Below the pieces are notes generated by a model that saw only the letters and a program-made list of their open reading frames with translations, did no database searches and was not told where the DNA came from. Below are positions 2 through 63,298 of a stretch of 64,000 nucleotides of DNA, in pieces. How positions within the stretch are numbered: position 1 is the first letter of the stretch; each line of letters begins with the position of its first letter. Source of the DNA: Rhodanobacter sp. FDAARGOS 1247 (GTDB lineage: Bacteria > Pseudomonadota > Gammaproteobacteria > Xanthomonadales > Rhodanobacteraceae). The stretch is taken from the NCBI RefSeq assembly GCF_016889805.1, contig NZ_CP069535.1, positions 1,302,001 to 1,366,000 of the forward strand, written 5' to 3'. The position numbers and the translations under genes are program-made.

Positions 2-58
2 GTGGGCGACCACGGTCACGAAAGCGAGACTGGCGGCGAAGCCGCACAGGCAGGCTGA
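2..58 (+). CDS. rsfS: 3' end of an upstream gene, probably ribosomal silencing factor
   Basis: An open frame enters from the left edge and ends at the TGA at 56-58, giving a short hydrophilic tail rich in Gly, Glu, His and Ala. It stops 12 bases before rlmH. In many proteobacteria rsfS (ybeB) lies directly upstream of rlmH and its C-terminus is variable and charged, so RsfS is the best guess. The identification rests on gene order only, because no conserved domain residue lies inside the window. Confidence 0.45.
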   Translation: MGDHGHESETGGEAAQAG

Positions 59-54179: not shown

Positions 54180-54719
54180 ATGACCAAGCTGTGGATTTCC
54201 GCGCTCGCACTTGCCCTGCTGGCGGGCGGCGTTTGTGCACAGGATGTGCGTTACGCCAACCCCAACAATGGCAACAATGACGACAACGCCCACTACGGCT
54301 GGGCCGACGTGTTGCGCGCCGACCCGGTGCTGGGCGTGACCCGCACCGAGGTGCCGCGCCAGGAATGCTACGACCAGCCGGTGGTGCGCCACGAAGGCGG
54401 CAACAGCACCGCGGGAACCGTGCTCGGCGCCGTGATCGGCGGCGTGCTGGGCAACACCGTGGGCAAGGGCGACGGACGCAAGGCCGCCACCGTGGCCGGC
54501 GCCGTGGCCGGCGGCGCGATCGGCAACCGGACCAACCGTGGCCGCGACTACGAAACCACCCAGACCCAGTGCCGCGAGGTCAGCTCGGTCAGCGAACAGC
54601 GCCGGATCATCGGCTACGACGTGGAATACCGCTATCGCGGCGAGGTCTACACCTCGCGCCTGAGCTACGACCCCGGCGAGCGCCTGCGCGTCCGGGTACG
54701 GGTCGACCCGGCCGACTGA
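54180..54719 (+). CDS. Glycine-zipper 2TM-domain surface protein
   Basis: A 179-residue exported protein: signal peptide MTKLWISALALALLAGGVCAQ, then a glycine-zipper segment GTVLGAVIGGVLGNTVGKGD near residue 80 and AGAVAGGAIGNRTNRG near 105, followed by an acidic/aromatic C-terminal domain (YDVEYRYRGEVYTSRLSYDP). Such 17-kDa-surface-antigen-like proteins are outer-membrane associated. ATG 54180 has GGGAGG (54169-54174) in proper spacing; GTG 54177 is less likely. A terminator follows. Confidence 0.82.
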   Translation: MTKLWISALALALLAGGVCAQDVRYANPNNGNNDDNAHYGWADVLRADPVLGVTRTEVPRQECYDQPVVRHEGGNSTAGTVLGAVIGGVLGNTVGKGDGRKAATVAGAVAGGAIGNRTNRGRDYETTQTQCREVSSVSEQRRIIGYDVEYRYRGEVYTSRLSYDPGERLRVRVRVDPAD

Positions 54720-54731
54720 CCTCCACCAGCA

Positions 54732-54760
54732 ACGCCGCCAGCCTTGGCGGCGTGGCTTTT
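54732..54760 (+). terminator. Terminator after the glycine-zipper gene
   Basis: ACGCCGCCA (54732-54740), loop GCCT, TGGCGGCGT (54745-54753), then GGCTTTT. Confidence 0.75.
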
Positions 54761-54833
54761 CGGGACACCCGAATTTTTTGTTGCACGGCAGCGAAATTGT
54801 CGGCATGATGCCCGACAGTCACCCGGAATCCCC

Positions 54834-54938
54834 ATGTCCACAGCCGTCTATACCGCCACCGTACTGACCAGCGCCCGCGCGGCCGCTGGCATGACGTCGC
54901 GTGCGCGCCGACCGTTGTATGGATACTCGGCCGGGTAG
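54834..54938 (+). CDS. Arg-codon leader peptide upstream of the arginine cluster
   Basis: A 34-codon ORF (ATG 54834, TAG 54936) with clustered Arg codons at residues 23, 25 and 26 (SRARR, bases 54900-54911) shortly before its stop. Its last codons contain an RNA segment able to form an antiterminator. A shorter version from the internal ATG 54891 (15 codons, MTSRARRPLYGYSAG) is possible; neither start has a strong ribosome-binding site. A candidate promoter is TTGCAC (54781-54786)-N17-CATGAT (54804-54809). By analogy with trp/his leaders it would sense charged tRNA-Arg. Confidence 0.6.
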   Translation: MSTAVYTATVLTSARAAAGMTSRARRPLYGYSAG

Positions 54939-55000
54939 GCAGTCGCACGCGTTTGACGGTGCATCGACGACGAAACCCGGCCTCTGCGCCGGGTTTTTTG
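54929..55000 (+). promoter_or_regulatory. Arginine attenuator: antiterminator and terminator hairpins
   Basis: Segment A GGCCGGGT (54929-54936) overlaps the end of the leader ORF. Segment B ACCCGGCC (54975-54982) is its exact complement. Segment C GCCGGGTT (54988-54995) pairs with AACCCGGC (54974-54981) and is followed by a T-run. A:B and B:C are mutually exclusive, so ribosome position on the leader would decide read-through into argF'. The gap from 54720 to 55021 otherwise holds only the upstream terminator and leader promoter. Confidence 0.72.
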
Positions 55001-55021
55001 TGTTTTGGATTGGAGTAAATC

Positions 55022-56029
55022 ATGGCTCTACGGCATTTCATCACCACCCAGGATTACAGCCGCACCGAGATCGACGCGCTGCTGGAACAGGCGGCATCGT
55101 TCAAGCGTTCCCCGCGTGGCCAGCAACTGGCCGGCAAGTCGATCGCCTTGCTGTTCTTCAATCCGTCGATGCGTACCCGCACCAGCTTCGAGCTGGGTGC
55201 ATTCCAGCTGGGTGGGCACGCCATCGTGCTGGCGCCGGGCAAGGATGCGTGGCCGATCGAGTTCGAGGTGGGCAGCGTGATGGATGGCGACACCGAGGAG
55301 CACATCGCCGAGGTGGCGCGCGTGCTGAGCCGCTACGTCGACCTGATCGCGGTGCGCGCCTTCCCGAAATTCCAGGACTGGGCGGTGGACCGGCAGGACA
55401 AGGTGGTCAAGGCCTTCGCCCAGTACGCCACCGTGCCGGTGATCAATATGGAAACCATCACCCATCCCTGCCAGGAGCTGGCCCACGCGCTGGCGATGAA
55501 GGAGCACCTGGGCGACCTCACCAGGAAGAAGTACGTGCTGACCTGGACCTACCACCCGAAACCGTTGAACACCGCGGTAGCGAACTCGGCGCTGCTGATC
55601 GCGACGAAGATGGGCATGGACGTGACCTTGCTGTGCCCCACGCCCGACTACGTGCTCGACGAGCGCTACATGGCGTTTGGCCGTCTGAACGCCGAGCAGA
55701 ACGGCGGTTCGCTGAAGGTCAGCCACGACATCGAGGAAGCCTATGCCGGCGCCGACGTGGTCTACGCCAAGAGCTGGGGCGCGTTGCCGTTCTTCGGCCA
55801 GTGGGACAAGGAGAAGCCGATCCGCGAGGCGAACAGGCACTTCATGGTGGACGAGGCAAAGATGGCGCTGACCAACCACGGCTTGTTCAGCCACTGCCTG
55901 CCGCTGCGCCGGAACATCAAGGCCACCGACGCGGTGATGGATGCGCCGTACTGCATCGCCATCGACGAGGCCGAGAACCGCCTGCACGTGCAGAAGGCGG
56001 TGATGGCGTCGCTGATCGGGCAGGGCTGA
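55022..56029 (+). CDS. argF': N-acetylornithine carbamoyltransferase
   Basis: A 335-residue transcarbamylase using N-acetyl-L-ornithine, the Xanthomonas-type route in which citrulline is made acetylated. FNPSMRTRTSFELGAFQLGG (carbamoyl-phosphate site, near 48), PIEFEVGSVMDGDTEEHIAE, HPCQELAHALAMKEH near 148 and HCLPLRRNIKATDAV near 293 match known AOTCases. The last motif includes the Lys (302 in Xanthomonas) that is carboxylated. The length matches (339 in X. campestris). First structural gene after the arginine attenuator; the leader TAG is 84 bases upstream. Confidence 0.96.
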   Translation: MALRHFITTQDYSRTEIDALLEQAASFKRSPRGQQLAGKSIALLFFNPSMRTRTSFELGAFQLGGHAIVLAPGKDAWPIEFEVGSVMDGDTEEHIAEVARVLSRYVDLIAVRAFPKFQDWAVDRQDKVVKAFAQYATVPVINMETITHPCQELAHALAMKEHLGDLTRKKYVLTWTYHPKPLNTAVANSALLIATKMGMDVTLLCPTPDYVLDERYMAFGRLNAEQNGGSLKVSHDIEEAYAGADVVYAKSWGALPFFGQWDKEKPIREANRHFMVDEAKMALTNHGLFSHCLPLRRNIKATDAVMDAPYCIAIDEAENRLHVQKAVMASLIGQG

Positions 56030-56035
56030 GCCGGC

Positions 56036-56656
56036 ATGTACACGCCGAAGCATTTCCAGGAAACGCGGAGCGAGGCCTTGCACGGGCTGATCCGGGCGTA
56101 TCCGTTCGCCACCGTGGTGACCCACGGGGCCGGCGGGCTGGCGGCCAATCACTTGCCATTCGAACTGGTCGATGGCGTGCTGCATGGCCATGTCGCGCGC
56201 GGCAACGAGCTGGCGCAGCAGGACGGCGCCGAGGTGCTGCTGGTGTTCCAGGGTCCGGACGGCTACATCAGTCCGAACTGGTATCCGAGCAAGCACGAGA
56301 CCGGGCGCGAGGTGCCGACGTGGAACTACGCGGTGGTGCACGTGCATGGTCGCTTGAAAGTGATCGATGACGCGGCCTGGCTGCGCCGGCTGCTGGAGAC
56401 GCTGACCGACCACCATGAGGCGGGCCAACCACAGCCATGGAAGATCACGGATGCGCCGGAAGACCACATCGAGAAGTCGCTGCGCGCCATCGTCGGTCTC
56501 GAAATCAGCATCGACCGCATCGAAGGCAAGTTCAAGTTGAGCCAGAACCATCCCGCGCGCAATCGCGCCGGCGTGATCGCCGGGCTGCGCGAGCGCGACG
56601 GCGATGGCGACGTGGAGCTGGCCGCACTGATGACCCAACAGGAGCCAACGCCGTGA
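56036..56656 (+). CDS. FMN-binding negative transcriptional regulator, PaiB family
   Basis: A 206-residue PaiB-like protein. MYTPKHFQETRSEALHGLI, HLPFELVDGVLHGHVARGN, PDGYISPNWYPSKHE and VPTWNYAVVHVHG are the family's conserved blocks, making a flavin-reductase-like FMN-binding split barrel. PaiB in Bacillus represses sporulation and degradative genes; function in proteobacteria is unclear. It sits between argF' and the OsmC-like gene inside the arginine run (6 bases after argF'). Confidence 0.88.
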   Translation: MYTPKHFQETRSEALHGLIRAYPFATVVTHGAGGLAANHLPFELVDGVLHGHVARGNELAQQDGAEVLLVFQGPDGYISPNWYPSKHETGREVPTWNYAVVHVHGRLKVIDDAAWLRRLLETLTDHHEAGQPQPWKITDAPEDHIEKSLRAIVGLEISIDRIEGKFKLSQNHPARNRAGVIAGLRERDGDGDVELAALMTQQEPTP

Positions 56657-57126
56657 CTCATCAACATCACTATCGCGTCGACGTGGAGTGGACCGGAAAC
56701 CTCGGGACAGGCACCGACGGCTACCGCAACTATAGCCGCGAGCACGTGATCCGCATCGCGGGGAAACCCGAGCTGGCCGGCTCGTCCGATCCGACCTTCC
56801 GCGGCGACGCCACCCGGCACAATCCCGAAGACATGCTGGTCACCGCATTGTCCACCTGCCACATGCTGTCCTACCTGCACATGGCCACCGTGGCCGGCGT
56901 GGTGGTGACCGCTTACACCGATGCCGCCGAAGGCACGATGGCCACCGAAGGCGACGGCGGTCGCTTCGTGGAGGTAGTGCTGCGTCCCGTGGTGACGATC
57001 AGCGCCGCCAGCGATCCGGCCAAGGCCGAGGCCGCTCACGATGCCGCGCACCATGCCTGCTTCATCGCCAACTCCGTGAATTTCCCGGTGCGCTGCGAGC
57101 CGCGCATCGTCGTCGCATCCGACTGA
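56653..57126 (+). CDS. OsmC/Ohr-family peroxidase-like protein
   Basis: A 157-residue OsmC-family protein with the two Cys of the peroxidatic/resolving pair: first in [16 protein letters not shown] near 75, second in [14 protein letters not shown] near 137. Start is GTG 56653 overlapping the PaiB stop. Ohr/OsmC proteins reduce organic hydroperoxides. Like PaiB, it is an insertion in an otherwise purely arginine-biosynthetic operon. Confidence 0.87.
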
Positions 57127-57148
57127 ATCAATCCAGGATCTGCAAGCC

Positions 57149-58342
57149 ATGAGCAAAGACATCGTCCTCGCCTTCTCCGGCGGCCTCGACACCAGCTTCT
57201 GCGTGCCCTACCTGCAGGCGCAGGGCTGGGCCGTGCACACCGTGTTCGCCGATACCGGCGGCGTGGATGCCGAGGAGCGGGCCTTCATCGAGGCCCGCGC
57301 GCAAGAACTGGGCGTGGCCAGCCACGTCACCGTCGATGGCGGTCCGGCGATCTGGTCCGGCTTCGTCAAGCCGTTCGTGTGGGCGGGCGAGGGCTACCAG
57401 GGCCAGTACCCGCTGCTGGTCTCCGATCGCTACCTGATCGTCGAGGCCGCGCTGAAGCGCGCCGCCGAGCTGGGCACCAAGGCGATCGCGCATGGCTGCA
57501 CCGGCATGGGCAACGACCAGGTGCGTTTCGACTTGGCGGTGAAGGCGCTGGGCGACTACCAGATCGTGGCGCCGATCCGCGAGATCCAGAAGGAGCACAC
57601 GCAGACGCGCGCCTATGAGCAGAAATACCTGGAAGAGCGCGGCTTCGGCGTGCGCGCCAAGCAGCAGGCCTACACCATCAACGAGAACCTGCTGGGCCTG
57701 ACCATGTCCGGCGGCGAGATCGACCAGTGGCAGGCGCCCGGCGCTGGCGCGGTGGGCTGGTGCAAGCCGCGTGCCGAATGGCCGTCCGACCCGCTGCGGG
57801 TGAAGATCGGTTTCGTGGGCGGTGAAGCGGTGACGCTGGACGGCGAGAAGATCGCCGGGCATGCGATGCTGGCGAAATTGAACCATCTGTTCGCCCAGTA
57901 CGGCGTGGGCCGCGGCCTTTACACCGGCGACACCACGATCGGCCTGAAGGGCCGCATCATCTTCGAGGCGCCGGGCCTGACCGCGCTGCTCACCGCGCAC
58001 CGCGCCCTGGAAGAAGCGGTGCTCAGCAAGCAGCAGAACCGCTTCAAGCCCGAGGTGGCGCGCAAGTGGGTGGAGCTGGTCTACGAAGGCTTCTTCCACG
58101 ACCCGCTGAAGACCGATCTGGAGGCGTTCCTGGCCTCCAGCCAATCCACCGTCAACGGCACGGTGACGCTGGAAACGAACGGCGGCAGCGTCGGCGCGGT
58201 GGCCGTCGAGTCGAAGCACATCCTCAACGCCAAGGGTGCCACCTACGCCCAGTCGGCCGACTGGGGTGTGGAAGAGGCCGAGGGCTTCATCAAGCTGTTC
58301 GGCATGAGCAGCACGCTGTGGGCCGAGGTCAATCGCGGATGA
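57149..58342 (+). CDS. argG: Argininosuccinate synthase
   Basis: A 397-residue enzyme that joins citrulline and aspartate using ATP. The P-loop-like [11 protein letters not shown] near residue 7 binds ATP; later [17 protein letters not shown] near 111 and [13 protein letters not shown]. The length matches the shorter ArgG class. ATG 57149 gives [12 protein letters not shown]. The stop overlaps argE by four bases (ATGA). Part of argF'-paiB-osmC-argG-argE-argAB-argC-argH. Confidence 0.96.
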
Positions 58343-59439
58343 GCGCGCTGCTGGACGCCACCCTGGAGCACCTGCGGGCGCTGGTCGGTTTCGACACGCG
58401 CAATCCGCCGCGCGCGATCGACACCGGCGGCATCTTCGACTACCTGCGTGCGCAGCTGCCCGGCTTCGTGGTCACGGTGACCGACTTCGGCGCCGGTGCG
58501 GTGGCGCTGCATGCGGTGCGCGGCGAGCCGAAATACCTGTTCAACGTGCATCTGGACACGGTGCCGGATTCGCCGGCGTGGACGGCCGATCCGCATGCGT
58601 TGCGGGTGACCGCGGATCGCGCGATCGGCCTCGGTGCCTGCGACATCAAGGGTGCGGCGGCCGCGTTGCTGGCGGTGGCCAATGCCAGCGACGGCCCGCT
58701 GGCGCTGCTGTTTTCCACCGACGAGGAAGCGAACGACCCGCGCTGCATCGCCGGCTTCCTGCGCGATGCGCATGCCTACGAGGCGGTGATCGTGGCCGAG
58801 CCGACCAGGGGCGAGGCGGTGCTGGCGCATCGTGGTATCCAGTCGGTGCTGATGCGCTTCGCGGGCCACGCCGGCCATGCTTCGGGCGAGCAGCAGCCCA
58901 GCGACAGCGCGCTGCACCAGGCGATGCGCTGGGGCAATGCGGCACTGGATTTCGTGGCGGCGCAGTCGCACGAGCGCTTCGGCGGACTCACCGGCCTGCG
59001 CTTCAACATCGGCCGGGTCGAGGGCGGCATCAAGGCGAACATGATCGCGCCCGCGGCGGAAGTGCGCTTCGGTTTCCGTGCGCTGCCGACGATGGACCCG
59101 GACCAGTTGCTCGCGCGCTTCCGCACGTTGGTCGAGCCGCAGCCGGTGGAGTTCACCGAAACCTTCCGCGGCGCCTCGCTGCCCGCCGGCGACACGGCGA
59201 ACGCAGAGGCGAACCGGCTGGTCGCCCGCGATCTCGCCGACGAGCTGGGCATTCCGGTGGGCAACGCGGTGGACTTCTGGACCGAGGCGGCGCTGTTCTC
59301 CGCCGCCGGCTACACCGCCTTCGTCTACGGCCCCGGCGACATCGCCCAGGCCCACAGCGCCGACGAATGGGTCGCGCTGGATCAGTTGCAGCATTACGCA
59401 GAGGTCATTCACCGGATCGTGGAAAGCAAAATCGCATGA
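58339..59439 (+). CDS. argE': N-acetyl-L-citrulline deacetylase (ArgE-like)
   Basis: A 366-residue M20-family zinc deacetylase. Metal ligands: [12 protein letters not shown] (His/Asp near 68-74), [14 protein letters not shown] (Asp near 102), STDEEANDP (Glu near 133) and [15 protein letters not shown] (Glu near 156), with [12 protein letters not shown] near the end. With AOTCase upstream, the substrate is probably N-acetylcitrulline rather than N-acetylornithine, as shown for Xanthomonas. ATGA overlap with argG and argAB on either side. Confidence 0.92.
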
Positions 59440-60752
59440 GCACAGGCAACCACACCCGCAAGACCATCGTGCGCCTGCTTTCGAGCATGGGCAGCGCGAA
59501 GGAAATCCAGCAATACCTCAAGCGCTTCTCCGAGGTCGACGCCAAGCGCTTCGCCGTGGTCAAGGTCGGCGGTGCAGTGCTGCGCGACGAGCTGGCCGAC
59601 CTCGCCTCGTCGCTGACCTTCCTGCAGCAGGTGGGGCTGACCCCGATCGTGCTGCATGGCGCCGGCCCGCAACTGGATGAGGAGCTGGCCGCTGCCGGCA
59701 TCGAGAAGCAGACGATCAACGGCCTGCGCGTGACCTCGCCGAAGGCGCTGGGCATCGTGCGCCGCGTGTTCATGCAGCAGAACCTGAAGCTGGTGGAAGC
59801 GCTGCAGTCGATGGACACCCGCGCCACCGCGGTGCCGTCGGGGGTGTTCCTGGCCAGCTACCTGGATCGCGACACCTACGGCATGGTCGGCAAGGTCGAC
59901 AGCATCAACCTGGCGCCGATCGAGGCCAGCCTGCGCGCGAATTCGATCCCGGTGATCGCCAGCCTCGGCGAGACCGACGAGGGACAGATCCTCAACGTCA
60001 ACGCCGACGTCGCCGCGAACGAACTGGTACGCATGCTGCAGCCGTACAAGATCGTGTTCCTCACCGGCACCGGCGGCCTGCTCGACGAGCACGGCAAGCT
60101 GATCGACTCGATCAACTTGTCGACCGAGTTCGACCACCTGATGGCGCAGCCGTGGATCAACGGCGGCATGCGTCTGAAGATCGAGCAGATCGCCGACCTG
60201 CTGGCCGATTTGCCGTTGACGTCATCGGTGTCGATCACCCGGCCGGCGGAACTGGCCAAGGAGCTGTTCACCCACAAGGGTTCCGGCACCCTGGTCCGGC
60301 GCGGCGAGAAGGTGCTGACGTTCGACTCGTGGGACGGCATTGACCTGGCGCGCATGCGCACGCTGATCGAATCGAGCTTCGGCCGAGCCCTGGTGCCGGA
60401 TTACTTCGAACGCACCAAGCCGCTTCGCATCTACGTCAGCGAGAACTACCGCGCCGCGATGATCCTCACCGAAGAGGACGGCTTGCCGTACCTGGACAAG
60501 TTCGCCGTGCTCGATGACGCCCAGGGCGAAGGCCTGGGCCGGGCGGTGTGGCAGGTGATGCGCGAGGAAAATCCGCGCTTGTTCTGGCGTTCGCGCCACG
60601 GCAACCAGGTCAACATCTTCTACTACGCCGAGTCGGACGGCTGCATCAAGCAGCCGCGCTGGAAGGTGTTCTGGTACGGCATCGAGGACCTCGACACGAT
60701 TTTCCGCTGCGTGGCGCATTGCGCGCAGCGCCAGCCGACACTGGTGGACTGA
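59436..60752 (+). CDS. argB: Bifunctional N-acetylglutamate kinase/synthase (ArgAB fusion)
   Basis: A 438-residue fusion. The N-terminal kinase domain (about 20-285) has [38 protein letters not shown] and [18 protein letters not shown]. The C-terminal GNAT domain (about 290-438) has [18 protein letters not shown] and [17 protein letters not shown] and does acetyl-CoA-dependent acetylation of glutamate. The fusion is a Xanthomonadales hallmark (argA plus argB). ATGA overlap with argE'. A repeat-filled gap separates it from argC. Confidence 0.93.
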
Positions 60753-60764
60753 GCAAGACCAACT

Positions 60765-60871
60765 CCCTCCCCTGCATGCAGGGGAGGGCTGGGGTGGGGT
60801 CGCTCTTGATCTTGCTGTGAAGATCAAAAGCCTCACCCCCTCCCGACCTCCCCCTGCCATGCAGGGGGAGG
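60765..60871. repeat. Composite palindromic repeat between argAB and argC
   Basis: CCCTCCCCTGCA/TGCAGGGGAGGG (60765-60788, perfect), then TGGGGTGGGGTCGCTCTTG, a small hairpin TTGATCTT...AAGATCAA (60806-60827), and a second palindrome CCTCCCCCTGC-CAT-GCAGGGGGAGG (60847-60871) in a CCTCACCCCCTCCC context. Same family as 4757-4923. It fills most of the 146-base gap. Confidence 0.9.
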
Positions 60872-60898
60872 AGAAAGAAGCATCGCAGGAGTGGATCG

Positions 60899-61882
60899 GT
60901 GACACACGACAAGAAAACCATTGGCATCGTCGGCGCGCGGGGCCACACCGGCACCGAGCTGATCCGCCTGATCGCGGCGCACCCGGCGCTGGAGCTGAGC
61001 TTTGTCTCCTCGCGCGAGCTGGACGGCCAGCGCGTCGACGCCCACGTGCCCGAGTATCGCGGCGAACTGCGTTACAGCGCGCCGGCACACGAGGACCTGC
61101 CGAAGCTCGGTGCCGACGTGGTGATCCTGGCCCTGCCCAACGGCAAGGCGGCGGCCTGCGTGGAGGCGTTCGACCAGGCTGGTGTCGATCCGATCATCCT
61201 CGACCTCTCCGCCGACTATCGCTTCGACAAGCGCTGGTATTACGGCCTGCCCGAACTCGCCCGCGACCAGTGGCGGGGCGAGCGGCGCATCAGCAACCCC
61301 GGTTGCTACGCCACCGCGATGCAGCTTTCCATCGCGCCACTGAAGGATCTGCTGGCAGCCCCGCCGGTATGCTTCGGCGTGTCCGGCTACTCCGGCGCGG
61401 GCACCACGCCGTCGGACAAGAACGATCCGGAAAAGCTGCGCGACAACCTGATGCCGTATGCACTTACCGGCCACATGCACGAGAAGGAGGCTTCCTTTCA
61501 GCTCGGCGTGCCGGTCGAATTCATGCCGCACGTGGCGCCGCACTTCCGCGGCCTCACCGTCACCAGCAATCTGTACCTCAGCCGTCAGCTGAAGCGCGAG
61601 GAAGTGCTGCAGCGCTTTCATGCTGCCTACGCGGGCGAGAGGCTGGTCACCGTCCTGGACGATGCGCCGTGGGTCAGCCGCATCGCCCACCAGCACCACG
61701 CCGAGATCGGCGGCTTCGCGATGTCGACCGACGGCAAGCGGGTAGTCGTGGTGGCCACGCTGGACAACCTGCTGAAAGGCGCCGCCACGCAAGCCATGCA
61801 GAACATCAACCGCGCGATCGGTGTGGACGAATACACCGCGATACCGGTGGGGAGGAGTGAGTGGAGAGGAGCCAAGAAGTGA
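60899..61882 (+). CDS. argC: N-acetyl-gamma-glutamyl-phosphate reductase
   Basis: A 327-residue NADPH enzyme for the third arginine step. NADP loop [19 protein letters not shown] near residue 7, the catalytic Cys in [16 protein letters not shown] near 138 (shown as [10 protein letters not shown]), and the C-terminal [16 protein letters not shown] 60899 has AGGAG (60887-60891) upstream. The C-terminus (about the last 8-10 residues, [11 protein letters not shown]) is encoded by the left arm of the repeat at 61853, an unusual case of a repeat forming coding sequence. Confidence 0.93.
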
Positions 61883-61978
61883 GGAGTGAGAAATAGCTCG
61901 CATCTCCCCCCGCCTCGCTCCCATCCTGCTCTTGCTCTTCTCTCACTTCTCACTCCTCTCAACTCACTCCTCTCAACT
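61853..61978. repeat. Long inverted repeat with GAGTGAG-type arms between argC and argH
   Basis: Left arm GGAGTGAGTGGAGAGGAGCCAAGAAGTGAGGAGTGAG (61854-61890); right arm CTCTCACTTCTCACTCCTCTCAACTCACTCCTCTCAACTC, with AAATAGCTCGCATCTCCCC... and CTTGCTCTT between. It starts inside the argC coding sequence and ends just before argH ATG 61994. Same layout as the element at 51968. Confidence 0.85.
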
Positions 61979-61993
61979 CGCTACTGCCTCCCC

Positions 61994-63298
61994 ATGACCC
62001 AGCCCCTCTGGCAAAAATCCAATATCCGCATCGACGCGAAGATCATGAAGTTCCTCGCTGGCGACGACGTGATCCTCGACCGCGAGTTCTTCCTGCACGA
62101 CATCACCGCCAGCAAGGCGCACGTCGAAGGCCTGGCCAACATCGGCGTGGTCAGCGCCGACGAGGCCGCGGCGCTGAAGTGCGAGCTGGATGCGCTGGCT
62201 GCGGATTTCAGCGGCGGCGCCTTCGTGCTGGACGAGCGTTACGAAGACGGCCATTCGGCGATCGAGGCACGCCTCACCGAGCGCCTGGGCGACGCCGGTC
62301 GCCGCGTGCACACCGGCCGCAGCCGCAACGACCAGATCCTGGTCGCCACGCGGCTGTGGCTGAAGGACAAGCTGGTCGCGCTGGAAAACCATTGCCGCGC
62401 CATCGCTGAGGTCTGCCTCGATCGCGCCGCGCAACCGGCCGTGCCGTTGCCGGGTTACACCCACCTGCAGCGCGCGGTGGTGTCGTCCACCGCGATGTGG
62501 TTTGCCGGCTTCGCCGAAGGCTTCATCGACAATGCCCTGCGCGCCCGGCAGACACTGGCGCTGATCGATGCCAACCCGCTGGGTACCGCCGCGGGTTACG
62601 GCGTGAACCTGAAGCTCGACCGTGAACACACCACGCAGGCGCTGGGCTTCGCCCGCATGCAGGTCAGCCCGATCTACACCCAGTTGTCGCGCGGCAAGTT
62701 CGAGATGGCGGTGCTGGAGGCGATCGGCGGCGCGCTGCTCGATCTGCGCCGGCTGGCCTGGGACCTGTCGCTGTTCACCACCGCCGAATTCAACTTCGTG
62801 CAGCTGCCGTCCGAGTACACCACCGGCAGCTCGATCATGCCGAACAAGCGCAACCCCGACGTGATCGAGCTGCTGCGCGCCAGCTACGCCAGCGTGGCTG
62901 CCGCGCGCACCGAGATCGAGCAGCTGCTGTCGCTGCCCTCCGGCTACCAGCGCGACCTGCAGTTCTCCAAGGGTTCGATTTTCCACGGCGTGCGCCACGG
63001 CCTGATGGCGCTGGAACTGGTGCCTGACTTGCTGGCGCGATTCGCCTGGAACGAAGCGGCCATGCGCGCGGCGATCGAACCGGCGATGTACGCCACCGAC
63101 GTGGCGATCGAGCAGGCCGCCGCCGGCGTGCCGTTCCGCGACGCGTATCGCGCCGCGGCGGAGTCGGCTGTATCAGCCGGCGAAGGACGTACACCGGAAA
63201 GCAGCCTGGCGCAGCGCGTGTCACCTGGTGCGGCCGCCGATCTTCGGCTGGACGAACTGGCCGCGCGACTCGCCGCGATTGCGCGCGTGGCAGACTGA
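61994..63298 (+). CDS. argH: Argininosuccinate lyase
   Basis: A 434-residue fumarase/aspartase-superfamily lyase releasing arginine and fumarate. [20 protein letters not shown] near 85, [18 protein letters not shown] near 105, [19 protein letters not shown] near 148, and the signature [19 protein letters not shown] near 280 (catalytic loop). Length close to family norms (about 450). ATG 61994 gives MTQPLWQKS; a longer frame starting at 61886 runs through the repeat and is unlikely. Last gene of the arginine run. Confidence 0.96.

Follow-up and report, generated by a model that had tools for sequence, protein, structure and literature searches.

Leader-peptide attenuators are known for the trp, his, leu, ilv, thr and phe operons in Proteobacteria, and to our knowledge arginine is not among the amino acids served by transcription attenuators. 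TnaC and SecM are ribosome arrest peptides, and SpeFL is an arrest peptide that senses ornithine. Leader peptides of amino-acid operons are treated in parts of PMC2965389. For ORF34, the leader before speF in Salmonella, passages of PMC6386406 describe a conserved core in which two Arg codons sense arginine, and an increase in speF expression by ornithine. According to these passages, ribosomes pause at low arginine, which promotes an alternative RNA fold; expression falls with arginine, and the leader carries no rho-independent terminator.

Also close to the present locus is Xoo5, a small RNA of Xanthomonas oryzae that lies between PXO_00354 and PXO_00353, the latter named as N-acetylornithine carbamoyltransferase (PMC3039613, in part). 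Its 5' end was obtained by RACE and its 3' end by cloning, giving 124 nt, and Northern blots showed forms of ~130 and ~100 nt, with the short form only in later growth. In the same passages of PMC3039613, deletion of Xoo5 had no phenotype, its amount was independent of Hfq, and the authors state that the sRNA deletions left flanking genes unaffected; Xoo5 is not called an attenuator there. In the titles, abstract openings and some passages of the literature that were covered, with subscription papers outside reach, we found no published arginine attenuator before argF'.

Leader anatomy before the arginine gene cluster

The window analysed here is a stretch of 64,000 nucleotides from Rhodanobacter sp. 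FDAARGOS 1247. The features that concern the leader and the genes behind it are listed below.

54781-54809, + strand: likely promoter, picked by eye; -35 TTGCAC (54781-54786), 17 nt, -10 CATGAT (54804-54809)
54834-54938, + strand: leader peptide ORF, 34 codons plus TAG, read directly; translation MSTAVYTATVLTSARAAAGMTSRARRPLYGYSAG, then stop
54873-54911, + strand: conserved peptide core, codons 14-26, window residues A-R-A-A-A-G-M-T-S-R-A-R-R, from pN/pS and the codon table
54900-54914, + strand: proposed stall site, Arg 23, 25 and 26 plus Pro 27 (CGT GCG CGC CGA CCG)
54930-54936, + strand: segment 2 (GCCGGGT), overlapping the leader stop codon, from the comparison of 209 leaders
54975-54981, + strand: segment 3 (ACCCGGC), shared by the antiterminator (with segment 2) and the terminator (as its 5' arm)
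54988-54994, + strand: segment 4 (GCCGGGT), 3' arm of the terminator
54972-55000, + strand: intrinsic terminator with T-run, from a pattern scan (scan match itself 54972-54997)
55022-56029, + strand: argF', N-acetylornithine carbamoyltransferase, first gene past the leader (NCBIfam NF003384, 601.6 bits, cut-off 288)
56036-63298, + strand: remaining arginine cluster, from NCBIfam matches
56036-56656 and 56653-57126, + strand: two non-arginine genes behind argF', from NCBIfam comparison
57149-58342, + strand: argG (NCBIfam)
58339-59439, + strand: argE (NCBIfam)
59436-60752, + strand: acetylglutamate kinase (NCBIfam)
60899-61882, + strand: argC (NCBIfam)
61985-63298, + strand: argH (NCBIfam, 277.6 bits, slightly below the cut-off of 279.5)

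The original prediction described an ORF with Arg codons at 23, 25 and 26 and three complementary segments, and direct reading confirmed this description to the base. The Arg codons lie at 54900-54902 (CGT), 54906-54908 (CGC) and 54909-54911 (CGA), with an extra Arg read directly at codon 15. GGCCGGGT (54929-54936) and ACCCGGCC (54975-54982) are complementary at every base. The rival pairing was likewise borne out, by direct reading and the pattern scan: AACCCGGC (54974-54981) pairs with GCCGGGTT (54988-54995), and T's follow, forming a terminator with its T-run before argF'.

The pattern scan found two terminator-like sites in 54300-55300, against a shuffle mean of 0.6. The second, at 54759-54773, falls between the preceding gene, which ends at 54719, and the promoter-like site. 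A consensus scan of 54300-55300 did not recover the promoter at 54781-54809. The pattern TTGnnn-16..18-nAnnnT occurs upstream of 82 of 98 leaders from Rhodanobacteraceae, 79 of them with 23-25 nt to the start codon, and upstream of merely 39 of 101 from Xanthomonadaceae (a family assigned from the description of the Xoo5 family, as the Rhodanobacteraceae, f1, were via named argF' records; Xanthomonadaceae are f2). The ATG is the leader start in 79 of 84 distinct Rhodanobacteraceae rows.

The nearest named relatives of argF', at 96% identity, belong to Rhodanobacter spathiphylli and R. lindaniclasticus. Judged by cluster order and NCBIfam names, the leader would control genes of arginine synthesis by its position, and the cluster from argF' to argH would share one transcript. 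As for the gene pair at 56036-57126, one member has no NCBIfam match and the other is weakly OsmC/peroxiredoxin-like, below cut-offs. The genome itself held no clear second copy of the leader (next best E 0.057), and blastn with the leader region gave no match on the plasmids searched. Rfam had no match in the window at the gathering threshold; weak same-strand matches (rnk_pseudo at 26 bits, rimP, rsmX and Leu_leader) were far under gathering scores and were taken as chance.

Segment pairing and predicted folding

Pairing was compared in 209 distinct leaders with G-U allowed, L168 and L256 having been dropped from a set of 211 that was selected by MTSRARR, so that the invariance of codons 20-26 in this set is partly built in. 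Segments 2:3 and 3:4 were both free of mismatches in 193 of the 209 leaders. Taken singly, 2:3 was mismatch-free in 194, with one or two mismatches in the remaining 15, and 3:4 in 208, with a mismatch in one. The commonest triplet of segments 2/3/4 was GCCGGGT/ACCCGGC/GCCGGGT (n=95), followed by GCTGGGT/ACCCAGC/GCTGGGT (n=44) and GCTGGGT/GCCCAGC/GCTGGGC (n=31). Joint changes run through all three segments across the leaders of relatives, although most of them appear to track the split between the two families and few evolutionary events may therefore have been counted many times. The attenuation reading had been staked on the Arg codons and the three segments being conserved in relatives, and it survives: the codons are kept, and the segments are conserved and change together.

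The mean 2:3 mismatch was 0.086, compared with 0.295 when segment 2 was dealt among the leaders, and 0 of 2000 shuffles were as low, a result that is no probability because the leaders are related. Segment 2 was taken as the best complement within at most 56 positions, which biases the comparison toward pairing. This selection is an unlikely cause of the 2:3 pairing, since segment 2 keeps a constant place, 18 nt past the first base of codon 27, in 188 of 209 leaders. Among the 56 upstream positions, a complement as good or better occurred in just 6 of 209.

An automatic search was made for a short ORF in which Arg codons cluster ahead of segment 2, a 2:3 complement and a terminator, under criteria that were set after the leaders had been seen. 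It recovered the anatomy in 75 of 79 regions of the Rhodanobacteraceae (input L031-L110), 22 of 30 of the Xanthomonadaceae (L169-L198) and 13 of 28 of family f8, where more were found by eye. The strict criteria gave 0 of 28 in family f10 and 0 of 6 in f4. The peptide is present in all 12 of the regions missed in the first two families (4 of 79 and 8 of 30). No Markov-1 sequence among 3420 carried the anatomy. On this comparison of sequences, the leader anatomy is not chance, because 193 of 209 leaders are mismatch-free, the segments change together and 0 of 3420 Markov sequences match. Taken alone, whole-leader folding energy is unremarkable (z -0.89), and RNAalifold on unrefined alignments was uninformative.

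For the predicted folds, the stalled state was defined by codon 26 in the A site, with the leading edge of the ribosome assumed 12 nt downstream. With the ribosome there and segment 4 yet to be made, 2:3 was predicted in 101 of 101 leaders from Rhodanobacteraceae and 100 of 102 from Xanthomonadaceae, and in just 2 of 6 from other families. A ribosome at the stop codon gave predicted 3:4 pairing throughout (101/101, 102/102 and 6/6, respectively), and without a ribosome 3:4 was predicted in 96/101, 93/102 and 6/6. At equilibrium, with segment 4 present and the ribosome stalled, 3:4 outcompeted 2:3 in 91/101, 91/102 and 6/6 leaders. Since the terminator is the stronger fold despite the stall, antitermination would depend on kinetics.

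We consider, with a probability of about 0.8, that the arginine cluster is controlled by a ribosome-mediated transcription attenuator, which the nascent peptide tunes. RNA polymerase would start near 54816, and a ribosome would translate the leader ORF behind it. A shortage of arginyl-tRNA would stall this ribosome at codons 23-26 (CGT GCG CGC CGA) with its leading edge just before segment 2, which could then pair with segment 3 once this is made. With segment 3 held by segment 2, no terminator would form, and argF' and the genes downstream would be transcribed. With ample arginine, a ribosome that has reached the stop codon would cover segment 2 and 3:4 would terminate transcription; in the absence of translation, the terminator would form by default. 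It is important to consider that three clustered Arg codons are few, which counts against an attenuator.

Distribution of the leader and selection on its peptide

MTSRARR was present in 109 of 110 Rhodanobacteraceae loci fetched by argF' (some of them duplicates), the sole exception, L059, being truncated at 66 nt before argF', and likewise in all 90 Xanthomonadaceae loci fetched in the same way. Consequently, the invariance of codons 20-26 holds without selection by MTSRARR in 199 of 200 fetched loci. A profile of 11 peptides matched 277 of 398 genomes from the order at E 0.01; chance probably accounts for some of the weakest matches. Class-wide, 6 of 370 genomes matched at E 1e-4, five of them within the order; the sixth, L446, lies outside the order and has no SRARR-like leader. 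The clade with the peptide core comprises Rhodanobacteraceae, Xanthomonadaceae and two smaller families (f3 and f4), and the motif occurs in 7 of 8 f4 loci. At one Xanthomonadaceae locus (L215), at least ~180 nt of unrelated sequence, a repeat-like stretch included, separates the leader terminator from argF'.

In more distant families, MTSRARR occurs in none of the 30 f8 and 30 f10 loci. Many f8 ORFs retain segment 2 together with runs resembling R-x-R-R-P/T (RRLRRP, RRVRRT, RRPRRT, RRERRA), and RRRR, RRRSRRP, RRRPRPR and similar runs occur in one or two members each of f5, f7, f10 and f11. Thus, Arg runs (GRRARRTRR among them) stand before segment 2 in distant families, and the remaining peptide differs. 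Many f10 argF' loci, including L274, and one f6 locus (L265) have no recognisable leader. By eye, seven f8 loci (L364, L368, L372-L374, L376 and L378) share an alternative argF' leader peptide, GF-x-[HY]-LRR...PGWV, with two or three Arg codons.

This distribution, which is one among families and not a tree, suggests that the conserved core was acquired after the Arg-codon attenuator. Because distant families keep Arg runs without the peptide, classical arginine attenuation appears to be the best, and probably the ancestral, reading. Of the 150 genomes searched from the order, 5, all from family f12, gave an ArgR domain, which went undetected in the other 145; the same search was positive in 9 of 14 control genomes, E. 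coli included. Two f12 regions (G046 and G055) have no leader before the argF-like gene. The carbamoyltransferase of these regions is only 40-41% identical to argF', with the ArgR match ~1.2 kb away.

Between Rhodanobacteraceae and Xanthomonadaceae, 13 residues that end at the Arg codons are conserved (A-x-[MA]-A-[AS]-G-M-T-S-R-A-R-R), and their synonymous sites vary. A codon table of 205 leaders (102 and 103, respectively) has A14, A17, G19, M20, T21, S22, R23, A24, R25 and R26 fixed or nearly so. At codon 16 most leaders have Met, but 37 of 102 Rhodanobacteraceae leaders, the window among them, have Ala. The third positions of codons 17, 18, 19, 21 and 24 vary under a residue that is fixed or nearly so (A/S at 18).

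Between the two families, pN/pS was 0.24 for codons 14-19 and 0 for codons 20-26, of which the latter belong to the selection pattern and the former do not, when 40 of 102 leaders were set against 40 of 103 and aligned by place from codon 20. Outside the core it was 1.18 for codons 4-11, where N-terminal length changes inflate pN, and 1.01 for codons 28-32. Within the Xanthomonadaceae the values were 0.33 (codons 14-19) and 1.17 (codons 4-11). Within the Rhodanobacteraceae they were 0.36 and 0.13; in this family the N-terminal part is therefore conserved too. As a control, ilv leaders gave 1.21 over the 10 codons before the Leu/Val/Ile run, from six Xanthomonadaceae leaders of which three are nearly alike. 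These leaders were found in 6 of 8 Xanthomonadaceae and 0 of 8 Rhodanobacteraceae loci, which limits the control to the former. The six (L326, L328, L330, L332, L334 and L336) carry probable ilv leader peptides in which the Leu/Val/Ile run is followed by T-x-P-x-GAGR and a terminator. A His-rich leader, sought as a further control, was absent in 18 hisG loci.

These sequence comparisons indicate that the residues of the core are conserved for the sake of the peptide and not for the Arg codons alone, and a role of the nascent chain, as known from arrest peptides, is probable. The Arg codons are conserved, but not alone, as the 13-residue core is selected as well. A classical attenuator requires no conserved residues beyond its control codons, which counts against the attenuator reading. 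In the mechanism that we favour, the core would sit in the upper exit tunnel with codon 26 or 27 in the A site and would lengthen or sensitise the stall, a boost that could compensate for there being so few Arg codons.

At codon 26, 203 of 205 leaders (102/102 and 101/103) use CGA, which is rare in the argF' genes counted (22 of 1419 and 3 of 552 Arg codons). A slow codon ending the Arg cluster would sharpen the stall. CCG at codon 27 is fixed in the Rhodanobacteraceae and present in 89 of 103 Xanthomonadaceae leaders, where residue 27 is P in 89, R in 7, L in 5, M in 1 and V in 1. TCG at codon 22 hardly varies. An arrest of the TnaC kind at the stop codon was also considered and is disfavoured: with a pN/pS of about 1, the five codons before the AG-stop are free, and in L149, L210 and L230 the stop codon has shifted but segment 2 has not.

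The same conservation could come from an arrest-peptide sensor, in which arrest at codon 26/27 is triggered by ornithine or N-acetylornithine, or relieved by arginine, and uncharged tRNA-Arg plays no such part. Arrest would free segment 2 and turn argF' on; the trigger would be the substrate or a signal of shortage. SpeFL/ORF34 offers a precedent, and the 13 residues are conserved as amino acids up to the proposed stall site, with four-fold sites varying. We nevertheless hold this reading to be somewhat unlikely. Distant families keep Arg runs without the core, which fits tRNA sensing, residue 27 varies in the Xanthomonadaceae, and an arrest that means "on" excludes simple end-product arrest by arginine at codon 26/27.

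Less probable still is a plain classical attenuator whose core is conserved through overlapping RNA structure, with 54900-54914 possibly doubling as the first strand of a putative 1:2 hairpin. In folds predicted for the RNA without segment 3, segment 2 pairs with codons 20-29 in 77 of 101 Rhodanobacteraceae and 83 of 102 Xanthomonadaceae leaders. The near invariance of TCG 22 and CGA 26, and the state of CCG 27, would fit it. However, pairing constrains third positions like first and second ones, so the varying third positions of codons 17, 18, 19, 21 and 24 speak against this view, as does the pN/pS of 0 to 0.24 between families.

The Xoo5 RNA and comparison with known systems

The leader RNA of some Xanthomonadaceae genomes is that of Rfam RF02242, the Xanthomonadaceae sRNA Xoo5 (14 of 20 chosen loci at the gathering score, up to 148.2 bits), and among 150 genomes of the order RF02242 was over the cut-off in 21. 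The match in the window reaches 24.8 bits, short of the 50-bit gathering score. The original prediction knew of no standard annotation here, which stands for the window but not for some of its relatives, annotated as Rfam Xoo5 without a function. The RF02242 model, of 124 positions, begins 2 nt before the leader AUG (Xanthomonadaceae loci L172, L173, L182, L194 and L216); the leader peptide would therefore be translated from a nearly leaderless RNA. Furthermore, the RACE-mapped 5' end of an expressed short RNA in X. oryzae fits the leader.

In five relatives the T-run starts 150-154 nt past the Xoo5 5' end, and the cloned 3' end falls 26-30 nt short of it, so the 124-nt RNA is not a simple termination product. 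Premature 3' ends had been expected at the T-run, and the sole data found, those on Xoo5, place the end elsewhere; one guess is that it arises by trimming back toward a ribosome at the stop codon. The unaffected flanking genes reported for the sRNA deletions count against an attenuator, as its loss should raise argF'. The altered amounts of ArgF' and ArgG in a table of PMC3039613 belong to sRNA-Xoo1 and hence are no evidence on the leader.

A role in trans, either as a small RNA (the way Xoo5 has been filed) or through the leader peptide, would agree with the cloning of Xoo5, its Northern signals and its place in Rfam as an sRNA, and a trans-acting trp leader peptide is reported for Sinorhizobium. 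As the explanation of the locus it is very unlikely, given that a conserved, synonymously varying ORF lies within the RNA, that the RNA stands before argF' in 90 of 90 Xanthomonadaceae loci fetched there, and that Xoo5 is independent of Hfq and its deletion lacks a phenotype. A trans role may exist besides cis attenuation. Hardly credible is an unregulated terminator that merely ends an unrelated small gene or a read-through transcript, for although the preceding gene ends at 54719, chance short ORFs occur in GC-rich DNA and L215 has its terminator well apart from argF', the preceding gene has a terminator-like site of its own (54759-54773) and the conservation and joint change of segment 2 would be left without a reason.

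Going beyond the attenuator itself, we propose tentatively, at somewhat less than even odds, that the leader encodes a new arrest peptide, a nascent-chain sensor of arginine metabolism that the common ancestor of Xanthomonadaceae and Rhodanobacteraceae added to an Arg-codon attenuator it already had. Antitermination would be driven jointly by tRNA charging and by a tunnel signal (ornithine or N-acetylornithine are possible), and Xoo5 would be the argF' leader. As an attenuator, the leader would supply a regulator of arginine synthesis to an order with ArgR detected in just 5 of 150 genomes, arginine would join the amino acids of transcription attenuators, and the orphan sRNA family Xoo5 would gain a function. 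An attenuator could also be traced from a plain Arg-codon run in distant families to a conserved peptide, and the origin of arrest peptides would become a testable question.

As in TnaC and SecM, the leader has a short core conserved as amino acids, which here ends at the proposed stall site; unlike in them, arrest is putative, and no known arrest motif was noticed by eye in the core. The leader resembles rbfL of Staphylococcus aureus in its Arg codons, which in rbfL sense arginine limitation, but pausing in rbfL blocks the translation start of a regulator gene, with no transcription termination seen in the passages of PMC13009471 available. With SpeFL/ORF34 it shares a conserved short peptide with Arg codons; that system differs in working through Rho, access to the RBS and RNase G and in controlling ornithine decarboxylase, not arginine synthesis (passages of PMC6386406). 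The place before argF', the peptide core and segment 2 are all common to the leader and Xoo5 (RF02242), which differs in being filed as an sRNA of unknown function and in a model that ends before segments 3 and 4. In contrast to the six ilv leaders of the same order, the argF' leader peptide is conserved between families before its control codons. Like the attenuators of the trp, his, leu, ilv, thr and phe operons, it combines a short ORF with codons for the end product, exclusive 2:3 and 3:4 pairings, a terminator with a U-run and biosynthetic genes behind it.
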